This document shows, piece by piece, positions 11,081-64,000 of a stretch of 64,000 nt of DNA; positions within the stretch are counted from its first letter, which is position 1, and every line of letters starts with the position of its first letter. The notes under the pieces were generated by a model. The model was not told the DNA's origin and did not search any database. It was given only the letters and a program-made list of their open reading frames with translations. A program made the translations under genes and the position numbers. The DNA comes from Apostichopus japonicus (Eukaryota > Echinodermata > Holothuroidea > Aspidochirotida > Stichopodidae): NCBI RefSeq assembly GCF_037975245.1, contig NC_092568.1, positions 30,767,501-30,831,500 of the forward strand, read 5' to 3'.

Positions 11081-12212
11081 ATGGATGAAAGCAAACCAGA
11101 CACGTCTATGTCTCCTGGAAGTGGCAACATGAATCTTGGAAACCGAAAAGAATTAGAAGATTTCTTCGAAAAATTGTCTATCAATGTAGTTACTGTGGAA
11201 CATCCAGAGGTCAGAAGATTTTGATTTAATCAAAATGTATTTTTATGTCTTTGACTGCTTGAGTTTCGCTCATCTAGTCCCAACTATGCTAAGATACGCT
11301 AAATTTACCCAACGTACCTGTCAGTGTCAATGTGATACGAACCAAGTACCAATGATATATTTTGTAGTTATTACCACACTCTGCGTGTGCTGGAAGAAGG
11401 AAACATAAATATTAATAAATAATATAGAGATGATATAAATGGAAAATAGACAACAAAAAGAAAAATGTAGATATTTTATCACTCATTAGTACTCATTACC
11501 TCCTAGTAGTAGTACAATTCCGTAAACTTGACATTGAGGAGCCTACTGTAGGCCTCCAACCTTTAATTCGGCTTAAGTATGCATTCACTATGGATATAAA
11601 GAGATGGACCTTCAGTGTGTGTCCATCCTGTAGTGCAACCAGATTGATCTTCCCCATTCACATACAAATAAAGTATAGTTGCTGAAAGGGCAAAAATATC
11701 AGATTTAATTAGATTAAGAAATTTTGTTATAATATATATTGTGACAAGTTAATGATAAGAACACTACATGTATTTATCTTCCTCTTCAGGTCTTCACTGT
11801 TGAAGCTATGCTGCCATATGTCCAGCAGTTGAATGGAGCTGTCAGCAAAAATCTTTTCCTGAAAGACAAAAAGAAGAAAGGATTATGGCTCTTGACTGCC
11901 AGGCACGAGATTACAGTCAATCTATCAGACTTGGCCAAACAGGTCGGGGCACCCGGAGGATTTCGCTTTGCTGATGAATCACTACTGAAGGAAGCTCTGG
12001 GTGTTGGCCAAGGTTGTGTTACACCGTTTGCAGTTTTTAATGACAAGGAGCAGAAGGTTAAACTTTTGGTGGACTCTGACTTTGTCAATGGAGGACATGA
12101 AAGGATATATGGCCATCCTATGGTCAATTCAGCAACAATAGGCATAACACCAGAGGATTTAATGAAATTTTGGGAAGCAACAGGACACAAACCAATTTTA
12201 GTTAATTTATAG
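11081..12212 (+). CDS. PRORSD1: PrdX deacylase domain protein PRORSD1 (ProXp-ala type editing factor)
   Basis: Two coding exons, 11081-11209 and 11790-12212, give 183 residues. The intron is GT-AG (gtcaga donor, cctcttcag acceptor) and joins at a codon boundary. The whole protein is the YbaK/ProX-type aminoacyl-tRNA deacylase fold. Family members hydrolyse mischarged tRNA in trans; ProXp-ala removes alanine from tRNA-Pro in the cytosol. Recognisable blocks are VEHPEVFTVE at the exon junction (about residues 39-48), KNLFLKDKKKK (the conserved lysine region), GGFRFADE, GQGCVTPFA and GGHERIYGHP, ending TGHKPILVNL. Length is close to the vertebrate protein (about 170) with a slightly longer, Ser/Gly-rich N-terminus. 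The start was chosen as the first Met of exon 1. The frame is intact, so it should be functional. Confidence 0.93.
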
Positions 12213-18598: not shown

Positions 18599-21369
18599 TG
18601 GAACCATCAGAGCTTAGAGCCTCAGAGCATAGCAAACTGCACCACAGTCAATGGATGTATACTTAGGCCTACACTACAGTTAGCTTAACGACGAATGTGT
18701 CAATTTACGGGTACAGTATGAAAGAACTTGACTCGGCAGACATGTTGTGGTCAAATTCTGCTCAATTGAACGTTGCGTAGGCACAGAACAATAAATATTT
18801 TGAGATCATTACATTTCTGAGGAAGTACACATATGAAAAACAAATACAGTTGAGTGATTTGATTTTTCATGATAGACATCGTTAATCAAATCCTTGATTG
18901 CGTCAATTATGAGCCCACCATGCTACCTTTCTTTTCAGGGCATGAAGCTTTGCAAGTATCTGCAAGCTATGATACATCACCAACAATGTTTGCTCTCCAG
19001 ATTTAAAGCAAAAGTAGGCCTAAAGCCGACCAAGACTGCCTTAGTTCTAGGCCTGCAGTTCTATTAGTACTCACCGGTCAGACTCAGAGGGTATATGTTA
19101 TGTGCCATTCATTTGTCTGATTAGTAAAGCTGGTATGCAATATAATTTGAGACTGGTTATAGTTACCAAACTTACCATCTTCAAAATGTGTATTAGAAAA
19201 ATTTAAAAAAGTCAACTTTACTTAAATCTCTCTTTGCTGAAACATACAGGTTAACTGCAGTATGTAGATGTCAGATTTTGAGTAATCGTCCAATTCAGTT
19301 CATGCAGTGCTTCTCATACAAAATGCTTCGATTCAGCACTTTGGTATCCCCGTTGTGGGATCAACAGATTACAGTACCTGAGCATATGAAGCAGGCATTG
19401 TTGCAACCAACCATGAATATTGTCACTAAATTTCAAAGGTGTTGTGACTCGAACAAGTTTTCAGTCTTTCCCCATGTAAATAATATAGTAACTTGAATCC
19501 AGAAAATGGAATGAATCAACTTAAAATGAAGTGACTCATTATAAAGTCATATACTCATATGTACACAAATTGTAATGTACTGTCTGCTTCTAGTTTAATT
19601 CACTAAATTAAAAGTAACTTAAAATACAACTATAAAATGAATGTCAAGCAATATATAATGTACAGAATTCTTTATTAATTCAGATGTGCAGAACATGTGT
19701 GAAACACTTCAAAGTACAGCCTTCAAAGTACAGCCTTCAAAGTACTTTAAGGTCATTTAATTCAATAATTTATGCAGATTTCAGTGTGAAATATACAAAT
19801 AATATTTGCAATTTACTGTCTGCTTCTGGTTTAATTCACTTAATTAAAAGACTTTACTATAAAATTAATGTCAATCAATACATGTACATTATGTATTATT
19901 AATGCAAATGTGCAGAGCGTGTGTGAAACACTTCAAAGTACAGTATACGAACAAAAAAACAAAACCAAACAAACACAATGTTCAACCCAACATTGAACAT
20001 GTATTTTCTCCATGTTCACTTAAAGTGGCAGGCTTTGCTTGCTGAGAAGGGTTTAAGTTGATAGTAATCAATACAGTATTAATATATTAGTATTAAAGCG
20101 CCAGATACATCGGTAAATCAATTTAAACCTTCCAATTGTTCTTAACCCATTCATAAATTTAAGGAAGGTGGAAAAGCAGGAAGGACTATCAAAGCAAAAG
20201 CTCCAGTTTCTTCTTTAAAAAGAAACTGTTAGACTTGCATAAAACCAAAACAATTGAAGAATCTTGAAGAACAATACCCAGGCTTAAAATACATTTGGAA
20301 TAGCAAAACAGGCAAAAATGTTTTTTTTTTGTAAATATCCCAAATTTTGAGGGTTTTCATTTATAAGGCAAAATATCCTCCTGAAATATTTTGTACAAAC
20401 AGGGTGGTTCTATATCTCTGCTAGAAAAAAAAAATCAGATTTTTTCAATGTGACATGTTTTGAGTTATTGGCTGTCAAAGACAACCTCTTTTGAACATAG
20501 AGCAGCTTTGCAAAAATCTTGAGAAAAGCTAGAACCCTGAAATTTGATAAGTTGTTAGAGCTTTACACTAATAATTAAAGTAAAAAGCTCACAGGTCTCA
20601 CATTGTTATGTTGGTAAAGAATTGGCATTAAAGACCCTTCCTCATGCTGAATCACAGCATGAAATAGCAACTTTATCACTGCACAACTTACAAATTTATT
20701 ACATGAAAGCATAGTAATCATTTTTTTGTATTGTTTGGACTGGACATAATACCCTCTGAAAGAATCAAGTATCCTGAAGAAACAGTTTAGGAACAATTTA
20801 TCACTAAAAATAACACATTTTTATGTGAAAACTACCAAAGTTAAACACTTTGGCACTTTTGACTTGACCTAACGCGACAAGGCAATGCTTTTGTAGCCTA
20901 ATATTGTTAGTTTTCCAATTCTATGGGATATAATCTATGAGTGTCTGTAATGGGAAGTTTGTAGGAGTTTTAATTGCTGAGAAATCAGACCTCAAAAGTA
21001 AAGAAAATGGCTTGGTGGGGACAAATTGCAGAATTTCATAGTGTTATAAATCGGCCAATTTTGAAGCAATGTGACAGGAAGTTTCAGAATATGCATATGT
21101 CATGGTGCTCTAATCATGCAATGAGGGTGGTAAATTTTTGGAGAGGGTCCAGCAACAGCCATCAGTGATTTGACACGGAATGACAGACCCATATCAGGTG
21201 TCTACTGTCTTATATAGGGTTCAGCTAGAGGACTGCTTAATAATGACTATATAAGAGCTCAACAATGTGGCGTCATTACAGTTGCAACAATTTACAAACA
21301 GAAATCCTATTAATTATAGTTTGTTCGCATCTTACCTTTCTTGATATATATTGATTGCAGTTAATACGA
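18599..21369. other. Upstream region of the ASB3-like gene
   Basis: No exon could be assigned. A non-coding first exon is likely because an acceptor-like TTGATTGCAG ends at 21360, nine bases before the start codon. The partial duplication at 19565-19945 is listed separately. Confidence 0.5.
19565..19945. repeat. Diverged tandem duplication, 236-bp period
   Basis: ACTGTCTGCTTCTAGTTTAA at 19579 recurs as ACTGTCTGCTTCTGGTTTAA at 19815, and GTGTGAAACACTTCAAAGTA follows in both. The left copy also has a small triplication of CTTCAAAGTACAGC. Confidence 0.8.
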
Positions 21370-24300
21370 ATGGATCCATTCACGTACCGGGACTCTTGTT
21401 CCCCTGTCGGTGCAGCTGCCAGGGAAGGTGACTGTGAGTTGCTCTATCGACTCATCCAGGAAGGGAAACCTATGGATGTACGAGACAATCGGGGCTGGAG
21501 CCCCCTTCATGAGGCTGCAGCACACAATAGTGCAAAATGCATGAAAGTTCTGCTGGCATTTATGGAAGATAGAGAAGGTACTATTTATAGTCATTATTCC
21601 TCGACATCAACCTTCCTTATTTCTGCATGGTTACTAACTCAGTATATGTGTACAGAGTGTAACATACCGTACCATGTTATACCATTATTTTATCTTTTGT
21701 GAATACTTTGATGTGTATGCTCCCTTAAGTTTCTCCTCCCACAGCAGTTGCATAACTTCATACAAATTATCAAGCCCCTCCCCTTCACATCCCCTCCCCC
21801 ACTTTTCATCTGCCTTCCTAATGTCGCCTTAAAACTGACTTCCCGCCATGGATAATAAGATTAAATTGACTCCTTAAATTGAATGGCAGATTAAGTAAAT
21901 GACACTTTTCTTCTATTTGACAAAAGGTCCTTTTCTTCACTTTTCAACATGAAGACTATGTTTGCACTTTCAAAATTTTAAAACCAGCAAACACTTTGTC
22001 ATTTCTTCAGATATCAACTTGCAGACTTTAGAAGGGGAAACACCTTTATTTCTTACTGGAATGTCCAACTGTGATGAATCGATGAAAGTCCTGCTGGAGA
22101 ATGGAGCCAATGTAAATACACCAAACAACATGGATCAAACACCTCTTATGAAGTGTAAGTACCGTATGATTGGGTAGATTCTATCCCCATGTTCGAGGAG
22201 TGTTGATGGTAAAATTAAACTTTTCTCTCTGCTGAGTGAGGTGAGATTATGATAACTGTGGTATCTTGAGTCAATCTGCTGCATATCTTGGTTTTGCTAC
22301 AGCACTGAATCATTGTATTACAGTATGATCAAGGAAAACTTGTTACATATAATGATGTATTTATTTATTTAACTTGGTTAGAGAAAGAAATGAAAACCGT
22401 CTGCAACAATTTGTTGGTGTCAAATGTCATCAGCGTGTGTTAGGTCACTTCATTTTGGTGATAGGTGAGGATGCAGAAAGTATGAATGGGTCTAAGGTCG
22501 CAAAATATCATCCACATTCTATTAGCATTTTAAGACTTTATAGCAGCCTGGTGAGCCTCTCAAGAAGCCGTACATTGGTTTGTTGGTCCTCTTCTCTGAA
22601 CATTCATGATTTGTGCTGCCCATTATGGTGTATGGATGTGAGTTAAGTGCTGTTCAGAAGTATTCCAATTATCAGTGTTTACCAATCTGGACACATTAAT
22701 TCTCATTGTCACTTTATTGCAATTTTGCTTTCACCTGAGTTTCAGAATTGGTTTAATTGTTTGAAACAGTTCATGTCTCCCTCTTGTCAATCTCTTGCCA
22801 ATTAACAATAGTTGACAAACAAGGGTTTGAAGTCGGTTCTGTAAACTACAGTATGGGTGCTGCGTTTTGGAGTGTAAGATTTCCATATTTTTTTGTTTCT
22901 TCCTTCTTCATCAGTAATTAGTAAGAAAGTTGTTAATCCACTGTGTCTGGAATTGTTGATACAATACGGTGCTGACGTCAATGCCCAAATGTGGAACGGA
23001 TGGACCGCCCTCCACGAAGCAGCCTATCGGGGCAACGGGTCTGTAATAAAGCGGCTACTACAAGAGGGAGCTTCACTGGATGCTAAAGATGACTATGACA
23101 TTCAGCCGGTGTTTGCTGCAGCTCAGTATGGCCATGTTGACTGTCTGAAAATACTTCTTGAATCAGGTGATATATCGTTTCATTATTTGTCCACACAGCA
23201 GGTATTAACAAACAAAATACTCTGAAAAGTTGGAAGGTCACCAAGTAGCAATCTACAGCCTGAATCCTTGTACGTTTTATGTTGTGTATCATATCATTCA
23301 ACAATGCTGTAGTAATATACAGTAATATATAATAAGCTGTCGGCTCCCTTAAAGCAACTCTTTGAGTTTACCAAACCCACAATGTATCACCCAGAAGAAG
23401 ATTGTAATTAATCAGAATGAAGATACATTCTCTAGTGTTTGCACAGGTTATCCGGGTACCCGCCTGACGCGATACTACCCGGTTCCTAATTTATTACCCG
23501 AATCCTACGCAAAGTGTGATTTAAAAAAAAAAAAATTGGGCAAACCGACGGTTAGGCAGATTTCCCATTGACTTAGTGTGGTATTAGGCTACCATGTGGT
23601 CGAAGATAACAGCAATAACGAAGGTACCCGCCCGACGCGATACTACCCGGTTCCTTATTTATTACCTGAATCCTACGCAAAGTGTGATTTTTTTTTTTTC
23701 GAACCGATGGTTAGGCAGATTTGCCATTGACTTAGTGTGGTGTTAGGCTGCCATGTGGTCGAAGATAACAACAATAAGAAAGTATTCCATGGATATCTTA
23801 TAACTGTGTCACAATTTCAGCTAATAAACAGATTGCTAGGCTAGATTACCCCATTGACTTAGTGTGGTGTTAGGCAACCATGTTGTCGAACGTAACAACA
23901 ATAATGAAGTATTCCATGGATATCTCATAACTGCGTCACAATTTCAGCGAATAAACAGATGGTAAGGCTTAGCTAGCTTTCTCATTGACTTATTGTGGTG
24001 TAAGGCTACCATGTGGAAGAAATTATGATTTATTCATTCGTTTATTTCATAGAAGGAAAGGCTGACAAGGAATTTTACGAGATGTTAATGGATTATAGAC
24101 AGATTAACTAAAAAATAATAATCGCAAGTGGCTTTTTACTATTGGTTTATTCGAAATGCGATCAAATTGCGCGAATCGCGCAATCTTGCGTCTAATACGA
24201 ACCCTGGGCCTGCATAATAGATAGTAGAAGTAACAACTGTTTAAGAGCTAAATTGGATATTTATATGGTCTGATCCAATAGACGTGGAGAGCAAGCATAA

Positions 24301-26638
24301 GCAGCGGCGGCAGTGCGATGTTAGTAGTAATGTGAATTATAAGTTATTAACAAGTTAATGAAAGAAACAAGAGCAAATAGAAATTATTGAGGTTTTATAC
24401 CTTACCTTACACCTACGTATTTGAACATGAAAACATTGCCAGTAGAGAATATAATTCATTTATTATAGCATCCAATATGTAATTTCTTAAAAATCCTAAT
24501 ACACGATGGTAAACAATTTTTTTCCGGGTACCTGGATACCCGACGGGTAACGCCTCTCGGGCACCCGGTTCCCGATTTTTGGACCTGTGTAAACGCTAAC
24601 ATTCTCAGATATTTGCATACAAAAGAATGTTAGCCAGCGATTAATTAATCAATTTGAATTGATGGTCTGTAATCGATGTAAAGTTGAAGGTTGACTTTTG
24701 GATGACATTTGACTTTATGCTGTTAACTGATCATACTGTGGAATGTTGCCTTGTTGAATGTTCTTCAAGATTGTTTCAAAAGTTGAAAACTATAGCACCA
24801 TATTTGTAGATCTAAGCACCATCCATTTCACCATAATTTCACAAAGGAGAGTTGTTAGAGGAGTACAGGGTGTGTAAAAGTACTTGATTTTACTTTGGCT
24901 ACTCATGTGCAAGTAAGAGTACCATTGCAAGTACAGAAAAACATTCTCAGAATAAACAAGCATGAGTAAATATAGGGACTCAAGTCTGTTGATTAGTCAA
25001 ACTTTTTCTACATTTCTCAGGTGCTGAAGCTAATTCCAGAGCCACAGATGAAGCCACAGCTCTGTATATTGCATCGCAGGAAAACTATCCAGAATGCGTC
25101 AAAGTACTTCTTAGCCATGGAGCAAGAACGGACCTAAAAGTAGGAGGATATGCAACGCCACTTCACATCGCAGCTTGGAAAGGGAACATAAGGTGCGTAA
25201 CATCCGACATCATTCTATTAAGACGAATCACCCCCCCCCAGCTTTTCCTCGTGGACATTTCTTTTAAAATATACATAAGTGTATTTTGCCATGAATAGAA
25301 AATATCAAACACTCTCCTGTTATGTACTTTATTTTCGACACGTCTTGACTCTCTTTGGTGTTTTTCTATTTTTATTTCTACTGGCATTTTTATTTTTGGC
25401 TCGGTGAATTTCTGCAAGGACCGTGAACTTCCCAAGAAACTGGTTCATATGGTTCTCAAGGTTTTTCAACCCTGTGAAAATTAAAGGCAATTTTCAGAGC
25501 AGTTAACAGGATAATTAAGAGGTTCAAAAATATAAAAATGCTTGACTAGTTGCACGGTTGCACCACTCTTGGCCAAGGAGACACTTCATCAAATTTACCA
25601 TTGCCTACTCTACCTACTCAAACAGAATTGTTTAAAAGTGGAGTATGGTCGGAATATCTTTAGGAATGAAATGTAATAGGCCTCTTTCAACTCAAGTTAT
25701 GATTACCAGTTATAAGTGTTGTGAACTTCTGACATTCATTTTCTTAGCAAAACTAGGTATGTTTGGTTGAAATTTATTTTTGGTGTCGCAATTTAAGTTA
25801 TTCATCTGCTGTAAATAGTGTGGGTAGGTAGCCAAAGGGTACATAATTTTATGCAAATCATTTTTGATATTAGTATATAATTAGTTGTATTTTTATTTAT
25901 AGATGCATGGAACTCTTGGATCTTCTGACAAAACCTTGCGTGAGGAAGTACACGCCTCTCCACCATGCAGCTCAAAACGGACAACTTGAAGCGGTGAAGT
26001 ATCTGATCGCGAACGGTCACGATAAAGAAACCGGAGTGAAGTTTGACTCCGAGACAGGCCAACGACTGTATTCTGAGCCAGCTTACAGACCAGAGCCTCC
26101 TCTCTACTGTGCCCTGGAGGAGAAAGAAATCAAAGTAGCGGAGTATCTGCTGTCGTTAGGGCTTCCAGAGAGTTTGGATTGCTGCTCGGTGCAGTGTCCT
26201 CTGCATATATCATTCCCGCACATTCCCAGTCTGGACTTACTCTTGAGACACGGTGCTAACGTTAACTGCGGACACTTGAGCATATGGGGCGACTACCTCG
26301 GGGACTGGGACGAATTCAAGCACGCCACAAAGTTTTTACTGGATAGGGGGATGAAGGAGAGCCTGACGTGTAAGTTTGTCAGTCTCGATAAATGCGAAAT
26401 GGAGAACATGAGCGACCTTACGGATTTAGTGAAGTACTTCAAATTACTGCATCATTACATGCCATCCATCAAACTGTGCCGACATGCGGAGGCTGCCTTA
26501 GAAGCCAGCGGTGTATTGCAGAACATACAGAGAATAACTGGTGAGAATTATAATTATATATATATATCGCAGGCCTGCTTGATCGATTTCTATGATGATA
26601 CATCAATCGATCAATCAATTGGGATCTTGAGGGGTATA

Positions 26639-26673
<35 letters not shown>

Positions 26674-27681
26674 AAAGGTAGAGAATGGTGACACTGATGA
26701 TCACTGCCTACCTGGGTTGCTTCCAAAATATGGAGGAGGATTTTCCCATTTGCTGAAGTTTATAGCTTTATCAAATTTGCTGGAAATTTATGACATCTTT
26801 AGGTCGAAACCACGTCATAGTATTTTGCTAGGCAAATGTTGAAATTTGATGGTACTTTGTTAATGCATCTGGGCTCTCATTGTGAATCATAATTCACTGT
26901 TTTTATAGTGATCAGGAACATTTGTCCTTAACATTTGGTATTTGGAGTAAAAAAGTCTCAATACTTTCCCTTTTGATATTTGTTGCCTTCTTCTGAGGAG
27001 CGTACCTTAGTTAATGGTCTGTGTTCTACATTGAAGAGATAACAAAAGTGGAAAATTTTCGAAAAATTTATATATCACAGAGTAGGGTGGAAGAAGTGTA
27101 TGGGTACACTGCGGGGAATAATTTACCCAGTATTGCATCATATGATGCTATGCCAAATTGTCAGATTGTTCGGTAGTGACATCACAGAATATTGTGCAAG
27201 CGCTCATCCAAATAAATCTCAACAAGGGAACAAGCTATTTATCTGGAAGTTGGATCAGTGAGCTTCATTTCACAAGCTCTATGCTATAAATATACATACA
27301 TCATTTAATTCTCAGCCATTGTTAGACCCTTAAAGTAGTAAATGCATTGTGACTCTAGGTATGTGGCACCAAAAGTGTGAACTGTAACTGAGATGGACGA
27401 TGTGTTCAATCGCCTGTCACCATATCAGGATTAGGAATGTGCTTAAATTATCTCTTTCGTTTTCCCTTGTCTCTCTCTCACTCTACAAAGGTAACCCACC
27501 ATCACTTCAAAACTTATGCAGAATATATATCAGACATCAAGTCGGCACTAAGAAACTTGTAACTGATGAATGGGTGGACAGGTTACCCATACCACCACCA
27601 TTGAAAGATGTTCTACTCTACAAGGATGTCAGGGTAGACAACGACGATGACGACGTCGATGATAAAGGTGATGGAGTGTGA
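21370..27681 (+). CDS. ASB3: Ankyrin repeat and SOCS box protein, ASB3-like
   Basis: Six coding exons with consistent phase: 21370-21577, 22011-22154, 22915-23166, 25021-25192, 25903-26540 and 27491-27681, giving 534 residues (human ASB3 is 518). ASB proteins are substrate receptors of cullin-5 ubiquitin ligases: ankyrin repeats bind the target and the SOCS box binds elongin B/C and Cul5. The N-terminus (MDPFTYRDSC, then GAAAREGD and DNRGWSPLHEAA) matches ASB3 specifically. Ankyrin repeats run from about residue 10 to 360, with clear cores such as GWTALHEAAYRGN and YTPLHHAAQNGQ. The SOCS box is about residues 476-515: a BC box SLQNLCRIYI and a Cul5-box-like LPIPPPLKDVLLY. An acidic Asp-rich tail follows (about 520-532). 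The second repeat is one unit shorter than in vertebrates. All introns are GT-AG. Confidence 0.93.
23433..24598. mobile_element. Non-autonomous hAT element in ASB3 intron 3
   Basis: Inverted ends TAGTGTTTGCACAGGT (23433-23448) and, on the other strand, TAGCGTTTACACAGGT (24583-24598) match at 14 of 16 positions and follow the TAGNGTTT pattern of many hAT ends. Perfect 8-bp direct repeats ACATTCTC (23425-23432 and 24599-24606) are the expected hAT target duplication. Inside are tandem units: GATACTACCCGGTTCC twice, 168 bp apart, and CATTGACTTAGTGTGG or close variants four times. No transposase frame. Confidence 0.9.
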
Positions 27682-30600: not shown

Positions 30601-31202
30601 TGCAACTCACAGTAATTATTTGATGTTCATGCAGCTGATACTATTACTACTTATTTTATTACAAATGCAGTTTTCCATCAGATTTTCTGTGGTATTAAAA
30701 CCACTGATTACCCTCAAATTAAACTTCTTTATGAAATATTACGGCCTAGTCATTGACAAAGGTATTTCCTGTACTTCCACATTGTTTTGTATTATTATTG
30801 TTATTATTGTTATAATTTATTCCTGAAGAGGTTTCTTTATTGAAATATATTTTGATGTGTACCTTATGTGAAGATTTCACTTCTAACATAGTTGTACATC
30901 CTTGCAGAGACTACTCACATGGATGAATGTTTAAACAGATGCACTATTTCATTGAAATATTAGACACATTAATGTTCTCAACATCAGTACCAGTATTTGC
31001 TTTTGTCTCAACTTAGAAGAAGCCCAAGAAGAGATTCTTACAAAAGAGGGTTATAATTAAACCATTCAAACAGATTGTTAACAGAAAAATGGTGAATTTA
31101 GAATTTAGATAGCAGATATTTTCATTCCTTCCTGTTAATCTGTGTGTGTTTCTATCATTAAGTCACATGCCTGTATGTAATATTAAGTTTCATTTCTCAG
31201 CG
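27682..31202. other. ASB3 3' flank and intergenic DNA
   Basis: No further exon supported. AATAAA words near 28745 could end the ASB3 transcript. C runs occur at 30066-30075 and 30311-30320. Confidence 0.5.
29877..30065. mobile_element. Possible decayed hAT MITE
   Basis: Begins CAGTGGTGGCAAAT and contains AGAGCCACAT, GAGAGCCGCAAG and GAGCCACGG, words typical of short hAT MITEs. The right end is replaced by a C run, so no matching inverted end or target duplication can be shown. Confidence 0.35.
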
Positions 31203-32158
31203 TTATGCAGGGTGAATTTGTTTGTGTTGAGCAGATTGCATTTCTCAGTGTTGGGCAGACTGCATTTCGCAGTGATATGCAGACTGCATTAGTGTTGGGC
31301 AGACTGCATTTCTCAATGTTGGGCAGGCTGCATGTTCTCAGTGTTATGCAGACTATTTCTCAGTGTTGGGCAGGCTGCATGTTCTCAGTGTTATGCAGAC
31401 TATTTCTCAGTGTTGGGCAGCTTGCAGTTCTCAGTGTTGGGCAGCTTGCATTTCTCAGTGTTGGGCAGACTGCATTTCTCAGTGTTGGGCAGACTGCATT
31501 TCTCAATGTTGGGCAGACTTCATTCTCAGTGTTATACAGACTGCATTAGTGTTGTGCAGACTGCATTCCTCATTGTTGGGCAGACTGTATTTCTCAGTGT
31601 TGGGCAGACTGCATTTCTCAGTGTTGGGCAGACTGCATTTCTCAATGTTATACAGACTGCATTAGTGCTGGTCAGACTGCATTTCTCAATGTTGGTCAGA
31701 CTGCATTTATCAATGTTGGGCAGGCTGCATTTCTGAGTGTTATGCAGACTGTATTTCTCAGTGTTGGGCAGACTGCATTTATCAATGTTGGACAGACTGC
31801 ATTTCTGAGTGTTATGCAGACTGTATTTCTCAGTGTTGGGCAGACTGCATTTTCAGTGTTGGGCAGGCTGCTTTTCTCAGTGTTGGGCAGACTGCATTTC
31901 TAAGTGTTGGGGAGACTGCATTTCTCAATGATGGGCAGACTGCATTTCTCAGTGTTGGGCAGATTGCATTTCTCAATGTTGGGGAGACTGCATTTCTCAA
32001 TGTTGGACAGACTGCATTTCTGAGTGTTATGCAGACTGCATTTCTGAGTGTTAGGCAGACTGCATTTCTCAATGTTGGGCGGACTGCATTTCTCAATGTT
32101 GGGGAGACTGCATTTCTCAGTGTTGGGCAGGCTGCATTTCTCAAGTTGGGCAATATGC
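31203..32158. repeat. Minisatellite, 24-bp unit, ~40 copies
   Basis: Tandem copies of GTTGGGCAGACTGCATTTCT plus CAGT, with variants (GTTATGCAG, CAGGCTGC, CTCAATG) and some units shortened by 4-8 bases. Because 24 is a multiple of three and the unit has no stop in several frames, open frames of 93-134 codons appear in three forward and two reverse frames. These encode only 8-residue repeats such as SQCWADCI and show no other coding sign. Confidence 0.95.
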
Positions 32159-38588: not shown

Positions 38589-41354
<2,766 letters not shown>

Positions 41355-47800: not shown

Positions 47801-50800
47801 ATCATACAGTACTTCTAACTATATTCTATCACTTTCATCGTGTTTTTCCCTGTACTCTGTGTCCTTTGTAAGTTGCGACAAGTATTTTCTAAGCTGACCT
47901 GCAGTGCTCCTGAACCATCAAATCTGTGTGCCTCTTGCTTTTAACTTGCTATTTCTGTAATTCCCACATGTACGTAGAGTACCTCTCACCATACTAGCAT
48001 AAATAGAGAAACAAACCCAACCATCATCCTTGTCTACTGTCATAGAAGCTTTTGTGATGAATGACACACCCAAAACAGTTTTGACAAATCTTCCACCATT
48101 TGGGATCAAGGAAGTACCGTACCGTAACCCTGGATTAAAAGTTGTGTATGGCTACCATTTTGCAAATGCGTGTCATAGTGATACTAGTATGTTCAATCTT
48201 TTACTTTCCTTTTTAATACTTGCAAGGTGAATTTAAACAGGAATGGTAACAAAACCAATGCCAGTCCTTGGGTCATTAATTTAGATTTCAACATTTGCAA
48301 ACAGCAAATATCACTTAAAGAAATCCAAGCTTTTAGATTTTGCAAAACCCCTTACTATCACAGCAAATGAAAACAAAATTTGTCATAAATATGAAAATAA
48401 TAAAAAGGTTACAAATAAGAGCATGTGGCCTGATGATGTCATACTCATATTAGACTTGTTCAAGTTGTGTCTATGAAGGAACTTTGACCCTGTGATATTT
48501 CCAAAGTGGAATATGATATTCTCAGCTGGCAAGGGGATTTGTTCATCACAAGTATCTTAGACAGACCAATATGATGATGGATTGGTTTACTTCTCCTTTA
48601 AAAATAAGATTTTATCATCATTCTTCAAGTCACTGATATACACTAAAGATTTGTGAACTGACTGATACAGACTGACAATGAAACAGGACAGTCTGGTAGT
48701 CATGGCAATGAGAGAGTGACTGTCCACTCATTTAAAGTCATCTGTTTTGATACAAGACTGTAAAACTGAAACAACTCCATACAGCAACTCTCACTTCACA
48801 ACAGCTTTGCTGTAATTTTGACAATCCTCCACTGCTTTATACAAGTCGTACTTGTCCCCAATTCATGAGTATCTGCCAAAAGCTTGGTGATCTGAGCTGT
48901 TATTGGAAATATTCAGTCATATGGAGTTGTTAATCCTTTGTCAGGGTTAGTACCATGCTACAGGAGGGTGAAGGGTTCTTACAAGTGGCATATTGATTAA
49001 ATCATTTTCTAACAGTTTGGATTAATTGATTACAGGTAGGGAGATCAGTAAGTTTCTAAACAGAGAAATTTAGAAACAATTCTAGGGATAATATGTACCA
49101 TGAATTAAAGTATATAGTGTCAAGGATACAAGGAAGTCGCTGTGCATTTCATCAGAAGACATTGATCAGCAAAATGTCTTGTATGTTCAGTAATTTATTG
49201 CCCTAACAGCAAAATATTTACAGCAACTTTCGTTTCCTGAACTGATCTTTCAGAATATAGATACAGTAATTGACAGTACAGAAAAATATTTCCTTTGTGT
49301 TTCGTTTGGTCGTTTCCTTTTCTTCTTTGAAGTGTTACATTTAGTTCGTGCTACAAGAGTATTTGATTTGTTTCATGTTATCAGATATTTCTTTATCCAC
49401 CCTTGTTTACAGGACCTGATGGTCGGTGATGAGGCCAGTCAGTTGCGGTCCATGTTGGAGGTGAACTACCCCATGGAAAATGGTATTGTCCGAAATTGGG
49501 ACGATATGAGACATGTCTGGGATTACACTTTTAGCGAAAACAGACTGAATATTAATCCAAAGGAGAGTAAATTACTTCTTACTGAACCGCCAATGAATCC
49601 CAGGAAAAACAGAGAGAAAATGATTGAGGTTTGAATGATTTTACTACAACTATATGGGAGATAAGAATTTGTAGATCTATCAAATTTGAATGTACAATTT
49701 GTTGGGCTGTTTTTAAAGAGCTGTATTTTTCATTTGAATGTTTTGAATGTCGTGTTATTAATGGACTTCTTGTGGCATTTTGTTAGCATAGATAAGATCA
49801 AAGAATAATTGGTATAGTTGTTTTGCAGTGATGTCATCAGACAATAAAGTGGCCCAGTCAAATTATTAATTTCTGTCGCTTGCATACAGTATATGTCCAA
49901 CCCTCAATAGCAGGAGTTCTTAATAGGTACCCCACGGGCCAACTTCAACCCACGAAAGATATCAATCTGTCCCACTGAAAGAAAAATAAGCCGACCCACA
50001 ATCTTGGACTATTCAGGATTAGTCGGGAGCCGTCATCCCTACGGCGTTAGTCTTGAGGCCCCTGTTGGTACACCTGTAGGAAATTAATTGAGAATCCCTG
50101 CTCTGTAGTATAACAAAGAGCTGAATGGTTTGCTATTCAAAGCAAGAGAGTGGGTGGTCAGCAAGATTCAAACACCCATTGTACTACAGTATCAAACTAG
50201 TGTCATTTCTCACAATCTATATTTTACATCTTTTCCTCAGTCTCACCATAAACTGATCTACTGTGCCGTCGTACATAACTTCATCCTTAACTCTTATGTA
50301 CGTTTTCTTCGCATATCTTTCCCAGGTCATGTTTGAGAACTACCAGTTTGATGGCCTTTACATTGCAATCCAGGCTGTACTTACACTTTATGCTCAAGGT
50401 AAGTGTATAAATGTAATTAAGTCAATCAATCTGTTGGCCTATGGTCAGCCAGCTCATTTTAATGGAAAGTTGGAGATGAAGTGAGACATTTGGATATGCA
50501 TAAATCTTGACTAATGCTCGTCACATCCCCTCCTTCATCCTCCTTTCCACTGTCAGTTAAGAGGTCACCATTTTACCCCACTCTCATTCCTCCCCCCCCC
50601 CTCCTTCCCCGAGAATATATTACTACAATCCATGGTACTGTAGCTAGATGTTACCGTAGTAGTAGTATCTTTAACTTGCTTAATGATGACATCTTAGTTA
50701 CTGACTTCCATGAAGTTGTCCAAACTCTAAGAAGTTCTGAAAGCTCCAACATTCCACGAGATGACATTTTAATCTGCAAGCTCTGATGGAAGCCTGTCGT

Positions 50801-53800: not shown

Positions 53801-56002
53801 CCTTGCTTGATGATGACTTTATCCACAAAAGATGATGATCCGTGAATACAAATCATTATCCCTCTATGAAGTGCTGAAGGCAAGATGTTCGTCTATCCAA
53901 TGCAATGAGCGAAAATTGGAAAATGCTATGACTTTACTTTGTGAGTTTTAATCCTTAGAACTGTGCAAGTGATATATGATGTCCGTCTAGGAATTTATGA
54001 AATGAAAAGTTCAAATGTTTGCAAACCCAATGTTTGTGAAAACTTCCATAGGGATAGTTGAATAATTTGTTACATATCCCGGTAGGAGCGATAGTATTAA
54101 TAGTTTAAGATGCTAAGCAACCATTTCTGTTTGTGGAGAGTGCAACAATAGGTTGTTGACAACCCTCCCAGTACAGTTTGAAGTTGATTATGATTGCTTG
54201 CGAAATGGAGAATATCAGTAACTGTAGTAAGACATATTGTTCGGATCTACTCCTGGATGTCAGACTCAATTCTGCTCCAGTTTTGCCAGGACTTCACCCC
54301 ACCGTTGATCATATGCTATATCTCATTACCTTATCGAGTAAGAGATTCACAAATTAATAATGTTCAAAGATAATGATGATGGTATCATTGGTTGATTTTG
54401 AACGTCATTTGTTTTCCCTTCAGCTACCCGATGGTCGTATCATCAAGGTAGGGGGTGAACGATTTGGCGCCCCAGAAGCACTCTTCCAGCCTCATCTCAT
54501 CAATCTGGAGTGCCTGGGCATCTCTGAGTACCTTTTCAGTACCATCCAGGCTGCTGACATCGACACCAGGCCCGAGTTCTACAAACACATAGTTCTTTCA
54601 GGTGGTACCACCATGTTCCCAGGTTTTCCATCCAGATTAGAAAGGGAATTGAAACAGCTCTACCTGGAGAGGGTACTCAAAGGAGACACTACCAGACTCT
54701 CGGTGAGTAACCAGAATCTAGGTCAAGAGCGTAGTCGCTTGGCGTCATGAATCACGTTAGGTAGCTGTGCTGGAGACACTAAGATACCATGCATTGTTAT
54801 GTTAAAAGATAACATTGTGCATGTTACTGTGAGGAAACTTCAATTTAAAGAACTAGCTATGTTTTGTCACCTGGCCTGTCTATAAAATACAAATTGGGCG
54901 CAAAGGTAACCTTAACACACTTGTCACATTATTGGTGTTCCACCTGGGTTAAGTTGAAAGCTATAAAACCACACAGGTATGTATGGATGTCGAGACCGAC
55001 TTGCATTGACGATTATACCTCACATCCAGGAGCAGTCAACTATCATTTCGAAACATTTGGAAGTTTTACGATATGGAAGACCCTTTCTAAAAGAGCATAA
55101 CCTTGGATTGGTTCTAAACACAAAACTGTGCTTTAATATGATCTGCTCAAAGTTTGAACCCTTAACCACTCAGATAGTTGGTTTCTTTGATGGCCATTGG
55201 CACTCAGCAACCCTGCTCATGCAGAAATTTGGGACGTAGCTCTTCAGACAGGCAAAACCAGAAATGGTCACTTGAAAAACAATGTTACAGTTTTTTAACT
55301 ATTGCTTGCATACACAACCCCTCTATGATGCTAGGTCTCAGTGTATACAGTAACACTCTATTAAGTTGACCCTTAGAATACAGACTCCTTGCTTGATGAT
55401 GACTTTATCCACAAAAGATGATGATCCGTGAATACAAATCATTATCCCTCTATGAAGTGCTGAAGGCAAGATGAGTCTAAGGTGTGAGAGGGCTGTGTCC
55501 TGAAAATGACCTTTCGCTCGTAGGTGGGAGGGGGCGCGTGGTGGGTGGGTTGTATCCATGGCTCGGTAGACACAGAGCTAGACTGCTGTAGAAAACATAA
55601 TTTTTAGCGCTCATTGACCAAAACTGACAAGATTAATGATTAATTACTTAGTTCTCGTCACAAACTTTCTTTTATTGATGAGAATTTCAGTAAGTTTCCG
55701 TTTTAATTTAATTTTGCCTATTTTGTGTGTCACAGTGCTTGTTCATTATTTTCAATTATGATTATTATTATTATTTTTTTATGTTCTCTTTATATGTAAG
55801 TATCATGCTGTTTATCTCCATCTCAATCTTATAGAAATTCAAGCTACGAATTGAAGATCCACCTCGTCGTAAACACATGGTCTTCCTGGGCGGGGCAGTG
55901 CTCGCAGACATCATGAAGGACAAAGAATCATTCTGGATTTCAAGGGCAGAGTATCTAGAGAAGGGCCTCAAGTGCCTGGAAAAGTTAGGAATTAAAGTGT
56001 AG
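44887..56002 (+). CDS. ACTR2: Actin-related protein 2 (Arp2/3 complex subunit)
   Basis: Nine coding exons, all GT-AG and in phase: 44887-44934, 45927-46037, 49413-49628, 50326-50398, 50923-51059, 52009-52094, 52698-52761, 54424-54702 and 55835-56002. The product is 393 residues (human 394). Arp2 pairs with Arp3 in the Arp2/3 complex to form the first two subunits of a branched actin filament. The N-terminus [16 protein letters not shown] holds the first phosphate loop; DSGDGVTH (158-165) is the second. The Arp2-typical segments [39 protein letters not shown] and [19 protein letters not shown] are almost unchanged. Residues around 95-110 and 260-285 differ most from vertebrates. A poly-A signal AATAAA lies at 56670. 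The 3.4-kb intron 2 is the longest. Confidence 0.97.
49911..50100. mobile_element. Short hAT MITE in ACTR2 intron 3
   Basis: 190 bp with inverted ends CAGGAGTTCTTAA and, on the other strand, CAGGGATTCTCAA, the common animal hAT end. The flanking octamers CTCAATAG and CTCTGTAG match at six of eight bases, a decayed target duplication. Confidence 0.75.
51308..51400. repeat. Diverged copy of a dispersed ~93-bp repeat
   Basis: Shares GCAACCAGACT, CTTAATGATGACTTTTATCC and AAAGTGCTGAAGGCA with the two identical copies at 53795 and 55381. Confidence 0.7.
52323..52363 (+). ncRNA. Hammerhead-like ribozyme motif in ACTR2 intron 6
   Basis: Core boxes CTGAAGA (52328-52334) and GAAAC (52351-52355) with GTC and AGGCC following. 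Stem II has one mismatch (GATCAT/AGGATC) and stem I pairs at four of five positions. The CAGGCCCTCTTACTTTTACA continuation matches the copy at 15105, showing common descent. Confidence 0.5.
53795..53887 (+). repeat. Dispersed 93-bp repeat, copy 1 (ACTR2 intron 7)
   Basis: Identical over 93 bp to 55381-55473, starting CAGACTCCTTGCTTGATGAT and ending GTGCTGAAGGCAAGATG. Flanks differ. Confidence 0.9.
55381..55473 (+). repeat. Dispersed 93-bp repeat, copy 2 (ACTR2 intron 8)
   Basis: Perfect match to the copy in the preceding intron, 1586 bp upstream in the same orientation; the ACTR2 exon 54424-54702 lies between them. No inverted ends or A-rich tail, so the family is not identified. Confidence 0.9.
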
Positions 56003-58727: not shown

Positions 58728-59172
58728 GGTGGCAAACTCCTATTAGAGTATATCAATCAGTCTGCATGTTCTCCTTACAGGAAAAGTGCCAACATGCAGT
58801 ACGAAAACATCTTTTTTGATACGTTATCAATCAGGATATGGTTTCTTTTGTCTTGCATGTTGAAGAAATAAATGGAAGTACATGTGGTGCAAAAATTGGG
58901 TCAATTGAGGCAATATTAGACCCCCTTTAGGCCTCCCAGGAGCAGGTATGATAATTGTTTACTACTGAGTGAAGAGGTCTGTTTACAAGTGACGAAAACT
59001 TCCGGCTCGGATAGCAAAAAATCTGCAAGGTCATGATACAGAAATTTAAAGTGCCATGAAAGGCCAACTTGTCAGCTATCCAGTGATGGGCAGCTTTTAG
59101 CTAGTGAGAACTTCTACCTAGACTAGACTTTAGTGTGTAAGTCAATGGGGCTTTTAATGGGCGTATGCTACC
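58728..59172 (-). mobile_element. Diverged inverted copy of the TTAA MITE
   Basis: On the minus strand this 445-bp stretch aligns along its whole length with the MITE at 59184-59658, by eye roughly four fifths identical with small indels. It runs from GGTAGCATACGCCCATTAAA at its inner end to GGAGTTTGCCACCC at its outer end. The inner 40 bases are identical in the two copies. No TTAA flanks remain. Only 11 bp separate it from the TTAA of the intact copy. Confidence 0.85.
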
Positions 59173-59183
59173 CTGGGATCTTT

Positions 59184-59658
59184 TTAAGGTAGCATACGCC
59201 CATTAAAAGCCCCATTGACTTACACACTAAATCACAAAAGTAATGTGGTCTCTAAGTCTAGATAGAAGTTTTCACTAGCTTAACGCTACCCATCACCGGA
59301 TAGCTGACAAGTTGGCCTTTCATGGCACCATCAATTTTCCGTACCATGACCATGAAAATTTTTTGCTATCCGAGCCGGAAGTTTTCGTCACTTGTAAACA
59401 AACCTCTTCACTCAGTGGTAAACAAATTTCCTACGCTGCTCCTGGGAAGCCTAAAGGGGTCTAAAATTGCCTCAATTGACCCAATTTTTTCACCACATGT
59501 ACTTCCATTCATGCTCTTCAACATGAAAGCCACAAAAAACTAGATTATGATTGATAACAGGTCACAAAAGATGTTCTCCTGCTGCTTTTTGGCACTTTTC
59601 CTGAGGGAGAACAATCGAGCGGATTGATATAGACTCTAATAGGAGTATGCCACCTTAA
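59184..59658 (+). mobile_element. TTAA-flanked MITE, copy 1
   Basis: 475 bp including flanking TTAA at both sides (59184-59187, 59655-59658). Ends are inverted: GGTAGCATACGCCCATTA at the left, and GGTGGCATACTCCTATTA when the right end is read on the other strand. TTAA target duplications are made by piggyBac and Kolobok transposases. No coding capacity. Confidence 0.85.
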
Positions 59659-59969
59659 GTGAGAGTTGAATTTTTTTTTTTTTTCCAAAATGATACTTTT
59701 CATAGTCGTCACAATATAAACCACAACAGAATTATATGCAATTATCATTTTAGGTCCATAAAGATGTATTTTCAGAGATTTCAGTATGCACGGTGCAGTG
59801 TGTAAATACACATATGAGCAATACTGTGTAAGCAGTAACCAGGTCTATGTCTGCAACAACACTTCCAGTCACCAATTTTGATAAGCTTGACCAATTTGGG
59901 TGCATCTATGATTCTTGCAGGTATTATTGGTATCCCTGATCACAATCCACTTGGTCTGGCTTGCCCTAC

Positions 59970-60025
59970 CTGCAGAAACATCATCCATAGAAGGGTTAGC
60001 GGTGAGGGCTTTTTCGTCTCTGGCT
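59970..60025 (-). CDS. Candidate minus-strand exon in the tandem unit (repeated at 62238-62293)
   Basis: Acceptor CATCACTTTTCAG and donor CTGCAG|gtaggg bound 56 nt with the open frame ARDEKALTANPSMDDVSA. The composition looks protein-like and other frames stop. No family recognised. It requires one base from a preceding exon before the first full codon, so it cannot join directly to the candidate at 60576-60661; another exon would be needed between. Confidence 0.35.
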
Positions 60026-60575
60026 CTGAAAAGTGATGAAAACTACTTTTGTTTAGCTCAGCAGATTCCTCACAAACTGACCCACAGGACATACCCCAAT
60101 GTATTCCTGAACTGTTTGGAACATGTTAAACTGATATTGCATGTCACTCCAGTGCAACTGTTAAGTTACTAAGAATAAAAGAAGAGAATTGAAGGTGTTC
60201 TTTGCCAAAACTGGATCATCGGGATTTGTAAACAACAGCCTCACTGTAACAGTATTACAGCAGTCAAAAGGAAAGCTTACTGGAATGCTATCTAGATACA
60301 CTGTTCACCTCAATAGCATATCCAGTCCATTTAAAGGTTTGTGCATAGGTTGTTACAATGTATTAAAGACAGTTATAAGAGAAGAGAGGTGGATAGGGGG
60401 GCATATTTCATGATAAAACATTCAAATTTGTTGCTCGGCAGAGAACAACAACGTCAAATTACCTTATTCTCCATTGGTGGCAAGCACTGGTTCCTATAGT
60501 TACTACAGTAGATCTCCCATGGAAGCATCAGGATATCTCTTTCTGCTGTCAGAGTTGTTTGGGATTTGTTGTTAC

Positions 60576-60661
60576 CTCATCTAACCAGTTGAGTCCATTG
60601 ATACCACACCCATTCAAAGTATATCGCTGTGCATGCTGAGGACTTAGCACATCAACTTTCT
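60576..60661 (-). CDS. Candidate minus-strand exon in the tandem unit (repeated at 62844-62929)
   Basis: Strong acceptor (GTTTTGTCAATTTCAG) and donor GATGAG|gtaaca bound 86 nt. Only one frame is open; it reads KVDVLSPQHAQRYTLNGC then GINGLNWLDE. I do not recognise it. The exon is not a multiple of three, so including both tandem copies in one transcript would break the frame. Confidence 0.4.
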
Positions 60662-61451
60662 CTGAAATTGACAAAACAACAGAAAACTAATGAGGAGTGA
60701 ATAGGCTCAAAACCCCCTTGATGCACATTGGCAGAAGCAGAATATGCATACCTTTGTGGATTATTTGCTAAATAAGACTCAAAACATTCTCTGTGCAAGG
60801 TATTAACCCTCAGCAGCCACTCCACTTAGGATACAGACCTCATACAACATTGTGCTACAGCTGGTGTAGACTTGGTCTAGGATACTAACGTAGCGCCATT
60901 ATGAACCTGAGGCCTAGGCCTAAGCTAACAACATTAGGGGTATTTCATGCATTGAAACTGAGTTTTTGTCCTTAGTTAAACACCAGGTACTTCCAGCTTT
61001 AGCAAAAATAACCTAAAGTATGATTACCATGTAATTTAGGTGCCCACAGATGTCAAATTTCACTGAACTTAGTCGTTCATGTCACACACACTGCAGCCTT
61101 TTTGGTCTGATTCTGAGGGATTTTGAATTTCGTGCATTTGGCACCTACTTAGCAGCTTCAAGGCAGGAATCATACTACGGAAGCTTTGGTAGGTCAAGGC
61201 TTAATGACCCAATAGTTTATTGGGGAGGAAAACTGGTTAGAAATGCTCAGAAGGCTGTTCTAGTCTAATGTATGAACACGCACATGCTCTTTGTGGTACT
61301 TTAAGGCTGTAATACTAATTTATGCGTAAAAATCACCCAAGCGTGAAATTTTCTGACGTTTGCTTGAAAACCATTTTTACACACCATAGCAACTACTTTG
61401 ATCCAAAATTGGGACTTCTAGCACTTAAAATGAAAAATTTGGCATTTTTGC

Positions 61452-61926
61452 TTAAGGTAGCATACGCCCATTAAAAGCCCCATTGACTTACACACTAAAT
61501 CACAAAAGTAATGTGGTCTCTAAGTCTAGATAGAAGTTTTCACTAGCTTAACGCTACCCATCACCGGATAGCTGACAAGTTGGCCTTTCATGGCACCATC
61601 AATTTTCCGTACCATGACCATGAAAATTTTTTGCTATCCGAGCCGGAAGTTTTCGTCACTTGTAAACAAACCTCTTCACTCAGTGGTAAACAAATTTCCT
61701 ACGCTGCTCCTGGGAAGCCTAAAGGGGTCTAAAATTGCCTCAATTGACCCAATTTTTTCACCACATGTACTTCCATTCATGCTCTTCAACATGAAAGCCA
61801 CAAAAAACTAGATTATGATTGATAACAGGTCACAAAAGATGTTCTCCTGCTGCTTTTTGGCACTTTTCCTGAGGGAGAACAATCGAGCGGATTGATATAG
61901 ACTCTAATAGGAGTATGCCACCTTAA
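61452..61926 (+). mobile_element. TTAA-flanked MITE, copy 2
   Basis: Same as copy 1 at an exact offset of 2268 bp; part of the tandem array, not an independent insertion. Confidence 0.85.
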
Positions 61927-63719
61927 GTGAGAGTTGAATTTTTTTTTTTTTTCCAAAATGATACTTTTCATAGTCGTCACAATATAAACCACAACAGAAT
62001 TATATGCAATTATCATTTTAGGTCCATAAAGATGTATTTTCAGAGATTTCAGTATGCACGGTGCAGTGTGTAAATACACATATGAGCAATACTGTGTAAG
62101 CAGTAACCAGGTCTATGTCTGCAACAACACTTCCAGTCACCAATTTTGATAAGCTTGACCAATTTGGGTGCATCTATGATTCTTGCAGGTATTATTGGTA
62201 TCCCTGATCACAATCCACTTGGTCTGGCTTGCCCTACCTGCAGAAACATCATCCATAGAAGGGTTAGCGGTGAGGGCTTTTTCGTCTCTGGCTCTGAAAA
62301 GTGATGAAAACTACTTTTGTTTAGCTCAGCAGATTCCTCACAAACTGACCCACAGGACATACCCCAATGTATTCCTGAACTGTTTGGAACATGTTAAACT
62401 GATATTGCATGTCACTCCAGTGCAACTGTTAAGTTACTAAGAATAAAAGAAGAGAATTGAAGGTGTTCTTTGCCAAAACTGGATCATCGGGATTTGTAAA
62501 CAACAGCCTCACTGTAACAGTATTACAGCAGTCAAAAGGAAAGCTTACTGGAATGCTATCTAGATACACTGTTCACCTCAATAGCATATCCAGTCCATTT
62601 AAAGGTTTGTGCATAGGTTGTTACAATGTATTAAAGACAGTTATAAGAGAAGAGAGGTGGATAGGGGGGCATATTTCATGATAAAACATTCAAATTTGTT
62701 GCTCGGCAGAGAACAACAACGTCAAATTACCTTATTCTCCATTGGTGGCAAGCACTGGTTCCTATAGTTACTACAGTAGATCTCCCATGGAAGCATCAGG
62801 ATATCTCTTTCTGCTGTCAGAGTTGTTTGGGATTTGTTGTTACCTCATCTAACCAGTTGAGTCCATTGATACCACACCCATTCAAAGTATATCGCTGTGC
62901 ATGCTGAGGACTTAGCACATCAACTTTCTCTGAAATTGACAAAACAACAGAAAACTAATGAGGAGTGAATAGGCTCAAAACCCCCTTGATGCACATTGGC
63001 AGAAGCAGAATATGCATACCTTTGTGGATTATTTGCTAAATAAGACTCAAAACATTCTCTGTGCAAGGTATTAACCCTCAGCAGCCACTCCACTTAGGAT
63101 ACAGACCTCATACAACATTGTGCTACAGCTGGTGTAGACTTGGTCTAGGATACTAACGTAGCGCCATTATGAACCTGAGGCCTAGGCCTAAGCTAACAAC
63201 ATTAGGGGTATTTCATGCATTGAAACTGAGTTTTTGTCCTTAGTTAAACACCAGGTACTTCCAGCTTTAGCAAAAATAACCTAAAGTATGATTACCATGT
63301 AATTTAGGTGCCCACAGATGTCAAATTTCACTGAACTTAGTCGTTCATGTCACACACACTGCAGCCTTTTTGGTCTGATTCTGAGGGATTTTGAATTTCG
63401 TGCATTTGGCACCTACTTAGCAGCTTCAAGGCAGGAATCATACTACGGAAGCTTTGGTAGGTCAAGGCTTAATGACCCAATAGTTTATTGGGGAGGAAAA
63501 CTGGTTAGAAATGCTCAGAAGGCTGTTCTAGTCTAATGTATGGACACGCACATGCTCTTTGTGGTACTTTAAGGCTGTAATACTAATTTATGCGTAAAAA
63601 TCACCCAAGCGTGAAATTTTCTGACGTTTGCTTGAAAACCATTTTTACACACCATAGCAACTACTTTGATCCAAAATTGGGACTTCTAGCACTTAAAATG
63701 AAAAATTTGGCATTTTTGC

Positions 63720-64000
63720 TTAAGGTAGCATACGCCCATTAAAAGCCCCATTGACTTACACACTAAATCACAAAAGTAATGTGGTCTCTAAGTCTAGATA
63801 GAAGTTTTCACTAGCTTAACGCTACCCATCACCGGATAGCTGACAAGTTGGCCTTTCATGGCACCATCAATTTTCCGTACCATGACCATGAAAATTTTTT
63901 GCTATCCGAGCCGGAAGTTTTCGTCACTTGTAAACAAACCTCTTCACTCAGTGGTAAACAAATTTCCTACGCTGCTCCTGGGAAGCCTAAAGGGGTCTAA
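63720..64000 (+). mobile_element. TTAA-flanked MITE, copy 3 (cut by window end)
   Basis: First 281 bp of the same MITE, again exactly 2268 bp on; it begins at TTAAGGTAGCATACGCCC. Confidence 0.85.

Follow-up and report, generated by a model that had tools for sequence, protein, structure and literature searches.

A tandem array in Apostichopus japonicus as a very probable multimer of a nonautonomous KolobokP-type DNA transposon

The KolobokP group of DNA transposons, in the available text of Kojima and Bao (2022; PMC9587614), follows the plan LTDR-INT-LTDR, with an internal region (INT) between long terminal direct repeats (LTDRs) of about 450 or 660 bp. Each LTDR has terminal inverted repeats (TIRs) of its own, 11–18 bp long, with ends of the form 5'-RR...YY-3'. 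The same text describes solo LTDRs and multimers, (LTDR-INT)n-LTDR, with target site duplications (TSDs) of 3–5 bp and no strong target preference, as well as INT-INT joints from which the LTDR and one 3–4 bp copy have been lost, TATA being kept in KolobokP-1_MeMe. Autonomous members encode a direct-strand DDD/E transposase, marked by a C/DxxH signature, followed downstream by a His-Me (I-PpoI-like) nuclease in the opposite orientation (PMC9587614). Here, this plan is compared with a tandem array at the end of a 64,000-nt stretch of the genome of the holothurian Apostichopus japonicus (contig NC_092568.1, here C8, positions 30,767,501 to 30,831,500), called the window below.

Very probably (about 0.93), a nonautonomous DNA transposon of KolobokP type forms the array as one multimer, (LTDR-INT)18-LTDR, that has lost an internal LTDR. 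Relatives of autonomous type, with matching ends and with transposase and I-PpoI-like nuclease frames, coexist with it in the same genome. What resembles gene amplification at a miniature inverted-repeat transposable element (MITE) would then come from a transposon group that is unusual but already published.

An earlier note, made from the letters of the window alone, had described a 2268-bp tandem array there, and self-comparison of the window bears this out for the assembly: direct repeats start at 59184, 61452 and 63720, at exact 2268-bp spacing, and the final 4.8 kb holds two complete units and part of a third. Each unit consists of a 467-bp element with TIRs, M, and a 1801-bp spacer, S, counted from 59188; M corresponds to the LTDR and S to the INT. 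The features are as follows.

58728 to 59172, minus strand: older, diverged, inverted solo LTDR copy, 86% identical to M over 58728-59127, its last 44 nt (59129-59172) being an exact inverted match.
59184 to 59187, no strand: TTAA left of the first LTDR, read from the sequence; the array's right outer flank, outside the window at C8:30867508, is ATAT (locus L035).
59188 to 59654, plus strand: LTDR (M) copy 1 of 467 bp, bounded by its own imperfect 13-bp TIRs; identical to the array's last LTDR and 87-90% identical to autonomous KolobokP-type LTDRs.
59655 to 61455, plus strand: INT (S) copy 1, 1801 bp including both bounding TTAA, a nonautonomous internal region; no Pfam family in six frames.
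61456 to 61922, plus strand: LTDR copy 2, 100% identical to copy 1.
61923 to 63723, plus strand: INT copy 2, with one difference from copy 1.
63724 to 64000, plus strand: LTDR copy 3, interrupted by the window end; by sequence match, the array continues to C8:30867507.

The single difference between units 1 and 2 lies at S position 1621 (A versus G), and the inverted older copy stops 15 bp ahead of the first M, so both the near identity of the units and the neighbouring inverted MITE copy were correctly seen in the earlier note. Its link between the array and a transposon also holds, in that the "MITE" is the LTDR of an element that accounts for the entire unit, and the formation of multimers is described for this group in the available text of PMC9587614. 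In the assembly, the whole array extends over 40.8 kb (C8:30826688-30867507) and comprises 18 spacers. Its 17 S-to-M junctions are separated by 16 intervals, 15 of 2268 bp and one of 4065 bp; the latter means that one M plus 4 bp is missing, and at one place in the array two S join directly, with only one TTAA between them. The first and last M are identical, which, together with the nearly identical units, agrees with the suggestion that the array is recent or homogenised.

M and S match the parts of KolobokP. The 13-bp TIRs of M, read from the sequence as GGTAGCATACGCC and GGAGTATGCCACC, match at 11 of 13 positions, and M ends in GG...CC, fitting the RR...YY rule. At many loci S is surrounded by 467-bp LTDRs, close to the shorter published class, and the monomer measures 467+1801+467 = 2735 bp, compared with 2637 bp for the nonautonomous KolobokP-4N1_CorFlu in the available description. 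S starts and finishes with TTAA. Five exact S-S (INT-INT) joints carry a single TTAA, in the sequence GGCATTTTTGCTTAAGTGAG; together with a joint in the autonomous-type locus L050, they parallel the KolobokP joints that retain one tetranucleotide, which is TTAA here. TTAA is the end of the INT and not an obligatory target. Its 18 units set the array apart from published KolobokP, for which LTDR-(INT)4-LTDR is the longest run given in the available text.

All 35 contigs (671.6 Mb) were searched with a 23-base S-to-M pattern, allowing up to 2 mismatches, which gave 153 junctions (86+67) against 0 for the backward control. The 100 junctions that were listed represent M-S-M monomers and arrays over many chromosomes; beyond these, one monomer (L080) was read. 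In addition, the best 40 of 395 candidates from a genome search were scored, and those of 69 M-to-S variant places that fell within fetched loci were read. Other arrays among the listed junctions are found on C2 (3 units), C7 (3), C15 at 22.09 Mb (6), C16 at 32.97 Mb (13) and C18 (2). A larger array at C15:13.80-13.88 Mb (C15:13800500-13877200; L037, L038, L039) runs forward and then reversed, includes four of the LTDR-less INT-INT joints, and meets Ns, an assembly gap or masked stretch, at its left end. Unit periods vary among arrays (2268, 2269 and 2273). The C7 locus is duplicated in seven copies, all with the same CTAA flanks; 3 units are present in one copy and a single unit in each of the other six, so the unit number changes in place. 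M is also present solo, without S.

Some copies have a more complicated history. L046, L047 and L048 (on C4, C22 and C12) are older composites with a Ty3/gypsy element nested in the INT near S position 593, and since they share their left flanking DNA, they probably spread within a larger duplicated unit. The 7-kb form of S at these loci was considered as a coding parent and rejected, as it is S with the nested element. Near contig ends, LTDR right ends recur about every 170-230 kb (C19:31.17-32.30 Mb and C20:0.34-1.30 Mb), with further pairs close to the starts of C11, C14 and C21; all are followed by C, and a subterminal block with an LTDR in it has perhaps been duplicated.

A profile search for PF05551, the I-PpoI-type nuclease family, gave 13 matches in this genome, 10 of them above the family cut-off, and matches in 0 of 14 control genomes. 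Four loci (L049-L052), which cover six of the 13 matches, were read. L049 and L052 have an open frame of 691-692 aa that matches PF20700 (5.8e-47 and 8.9e-45) and, on the opposite strand, a frame of 190 or 164 aa that matches PF05551 (2.2e-11 and 1.3e-10), an arrangement like that of the KolobokP transposase and its His-Me partner. Over the full length of M, the LTDR identity to M is 87% in L049 and 90% in L052; the LTDRs of L050 are also 90% identical to M. The first 20 bp of the L049 and L052 LTDRs are those of M, and the final 20 show a single base difference. The INT of L049 and L052 is bounded by TTAA like S, starting with TTAAG and ending with CATTTTTGCTTAA, as S does. TTGA flanks the monomer L052 on either side. 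At least two INT copies, at least in part, are present in each of L049 and L050, the latter also with a broken transposase frame, and L051 has a shortened LTDR. A candidate CxxH motif (CPGH) is visible by eye in the transposase frame.

The outer flanks on both sides were read at 18 independent insertions, the C7 group being taken as one; L009-L013, L022-L024, L027, L031, L046-L048 and the array at C15:13.80 were dropped because an end was shortened, a gap intervened or a further unit followed. Perfect TSDs of 4-5 bp lie outside the outermost LTDRs at 13 of the 18: TTAA, TGAT, ATAA, TTAC, TTCA, CTAA, ATAT, ACAT, CGCA, TTTTA, GTCA, TTCA and CTAT. Among solo M, 28 places were fetched (20, plus eight of the nine in a second set, the ninth being the monomer L080). 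A single full-length match was present at 22 of them, with a perfect 4-bp TSD in 20, a 3-bp TSD in one and none in one; the remaining six, shortened or split, were left uncounted and include L081, which has both ends and unlike flanks. The solo search pattern excluded right flanks beginning with T, so that TTAA insertions could not appear in this sample. Solo LTDRs and multimers with varied short duplications are again what the published group displays. The notion that units start at a TTAA target site is only partly right: TTAA stands at the left of the array, but its right flank is ATAT, and M elsewhere has varied 4-bp duplications.

The other five insertions have imperfect duplications, which is a second departure from published KolobokP: L003 on C2 (TTAA/TTAC), L030 (TTAA/TTCA), L034 (TTAC/TTAA), the C16 array (L040/L041; TTAA/ATAA) and the window's own C8 array (TTAA/ATAT). 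TTAA occurs on one side in all five, compared with one TTAA duplication among the 13 perfect ones (one-sided Fisher test, 0.001; 17 loci, post hoc, with two chances for each imperfect locus). In the C16 array, TTAATTAAG, with an additional TTAA, comes after the left LTDR. Flanking sequences from the five imperfect insertions, searched among the fetched sequences, matched only their own loci, and a search for an empty site of the C8 array with its right flank gave one match in the genome, the array's own place. Going by the one-sided TTAA, composites might undergo a step of end restoration or take along a tetranucleotide from the donor, a suggestion that we regard as doubtful. With restoration, an LTDR lost from the end would be supplied anew beside the TTAA of the INT by another copy at that locus; alternatively, a piece excised from the interior of a multimer would carry its TTAA along. 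A restoring pathway for ends is raised, as speculation only, in the part of the Discussion available from PMC9587614.

With the TIRs of any pair of LTDRs as its recognition sites, the transposase of the relatives could mobilise solo LTDRs and monomers as well as longer stretches. Unequal exchange between LTDRs, perhaps following nuclease cleavage, would alter the unit number in place, as might the integration of a circle made of LTDR and INT; exchange between LTDRs would also keep the copies at one place alike. The left and right LTDRs of the same insertion are identical in nine of 15 pairs. In 13 of these pairs (without L029 and the autonomous L052), 10 private changes are common to both ends and 11 are one-sided, eight of the latter in L007; as the two classes are about equal, support for homogenisation is weak. 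Integration of a circle into a diverged resident solo LTDR was rejected, as it does not fit the nine identical pairs or the private changes that are sometimes shared; a circle may instead have integrated into a young resident copy. In the bacterial IS26 pseudo-compound transposons, direct end elements are common to adjacent units, arrays occur, and a circle of end element plus cargo is possible; these transposons are also cited in PMC9587614. The present element resembles them in its shared direct end elements, its arrays and its possible circular unit. However, IS26 encodes its transposase within the end element, whereas the LTDR here is without known protein-coding part. This genome combines autonomous-type copies, monomers, solo LTDRs and arrays of at least 18 units, and is therefore suited to tests of growth models for multimers, namely unequal exchange, circles and nuclease-induced exchange.

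Several points weigh against reading the array as a KolobokP-type multimer. The homology between S and the autonomous INT is short: at the left end, a 22-bp stretch scores 29, below the maximum of 30 in 200 shuffles, and only the 32-bp stretch near the right end, with a score of 39, exceeds the shuffles (maximum 31). S reads as an INT derivative with a middle made of other DNA. Pfam labels the 691-aa transposase (PF20700) as "Mutator-like", and its placement with Kolobok is tentative. In a direct comparison, I-PpoI itself matches the nuclease frame only weakly (E 0.15). Furthermore, since its outer tetranucleotides are unlike, the C8 array is not itself a clean single insertion. The copy number in a ~40-kb array of nearly identical units may also be misassembled.

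The last point leads to an alternative in which one or a few units were multiplied during assembly. The near identity of the units and the Ns at the start of the C15:13.80 Mb array would suit such an artefact, but the M-less unit within the C8 array, the different periods of different arrays and the variable unit number among copies of one C7 locus would not. As many loci with target duplications hold this unit, either as monomer or as array, assembly error, a worry of the earlier note, is unlikely as the whole explanation, and we give it little credence; the exact copy number of 18 is that of the assembly. The large, homogeneous arrays might also be expected of a satellite, or of a captured host gene fragment amplified beside a chance MITE insertion. 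However, M-S-M is dispersed with TSDs outside M, and 0 Pfam families were found in a six-frame search of S; host-gene capture and the candidate exons that the earlier note placed in each unit are therefore unsupported, making this explanation very improbable; a single-copy host locus with the middle of S but no M may yet exist outside the best 40 of 395 candidates that were scored.

Elements with long terminal repeats (LTRs) have TG...CA ends, a primer-binding site and a polypurine tract as hallmarks. If the array were a tandem of a nonautonomous LTR retrotransposon, M would be the LTR and M alone a solo LTR, as in a terminal-repeat retrotransposon in miniature (TRIM), and direct terminal repeats, solo repeats, multimers and TSDs of 4-5 bp do share that outline. 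However, M has GG...CC ends with 13-bp TIRs, the start of S (TTAAGTGAGAG) is unlike a tRNA-primer site, and its end (GCATTTTTGCTTAA) is unlike a polypurine tract, as judged from the sequence at 59188, 59654-59670 and 61430-61456 by the usual rules and not with a primer-site program. M is precisely lost between two S, and the relative with the same ends encodes a protein of DNA-transposase type. The tandem LTR elements and TRIMs in the available text of PMC11899658 thus resemble the array in outline but differ in their end features and in the kind of partner, and the LTR reading was rejected as highly improbable. Hardly any weight at all is left for a TTAA-specific, piggyBac-type MITE in tandem arrays, such as those of the coral CMITEs (in the available text of PMC2872659). 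While TTAA is present at every internal junction, solo and composite TSDs are mostly other sequences (e.g., TGAT, CGCA, GTCA and ACAT), on which this reading was rejected; the GG...CC ends and the autonomous-type partner with PF20700 and PF05551 do not fit either.

Elsewhere in the window, actin-family frames (PF00022) are found upstream of the array, at 49194-49631 and 54361-54747. Frames with ankyrin repeats lie within 21355-26839, and an aminoacyl-tRNA editing domain is present at 11745-12209. There are also two shorter-period tandem repeats, one of about 41 copies with a 24-bp period (31191-32152) and one of 9 copies with a 46-bp period and 96% identity (40740-41152).

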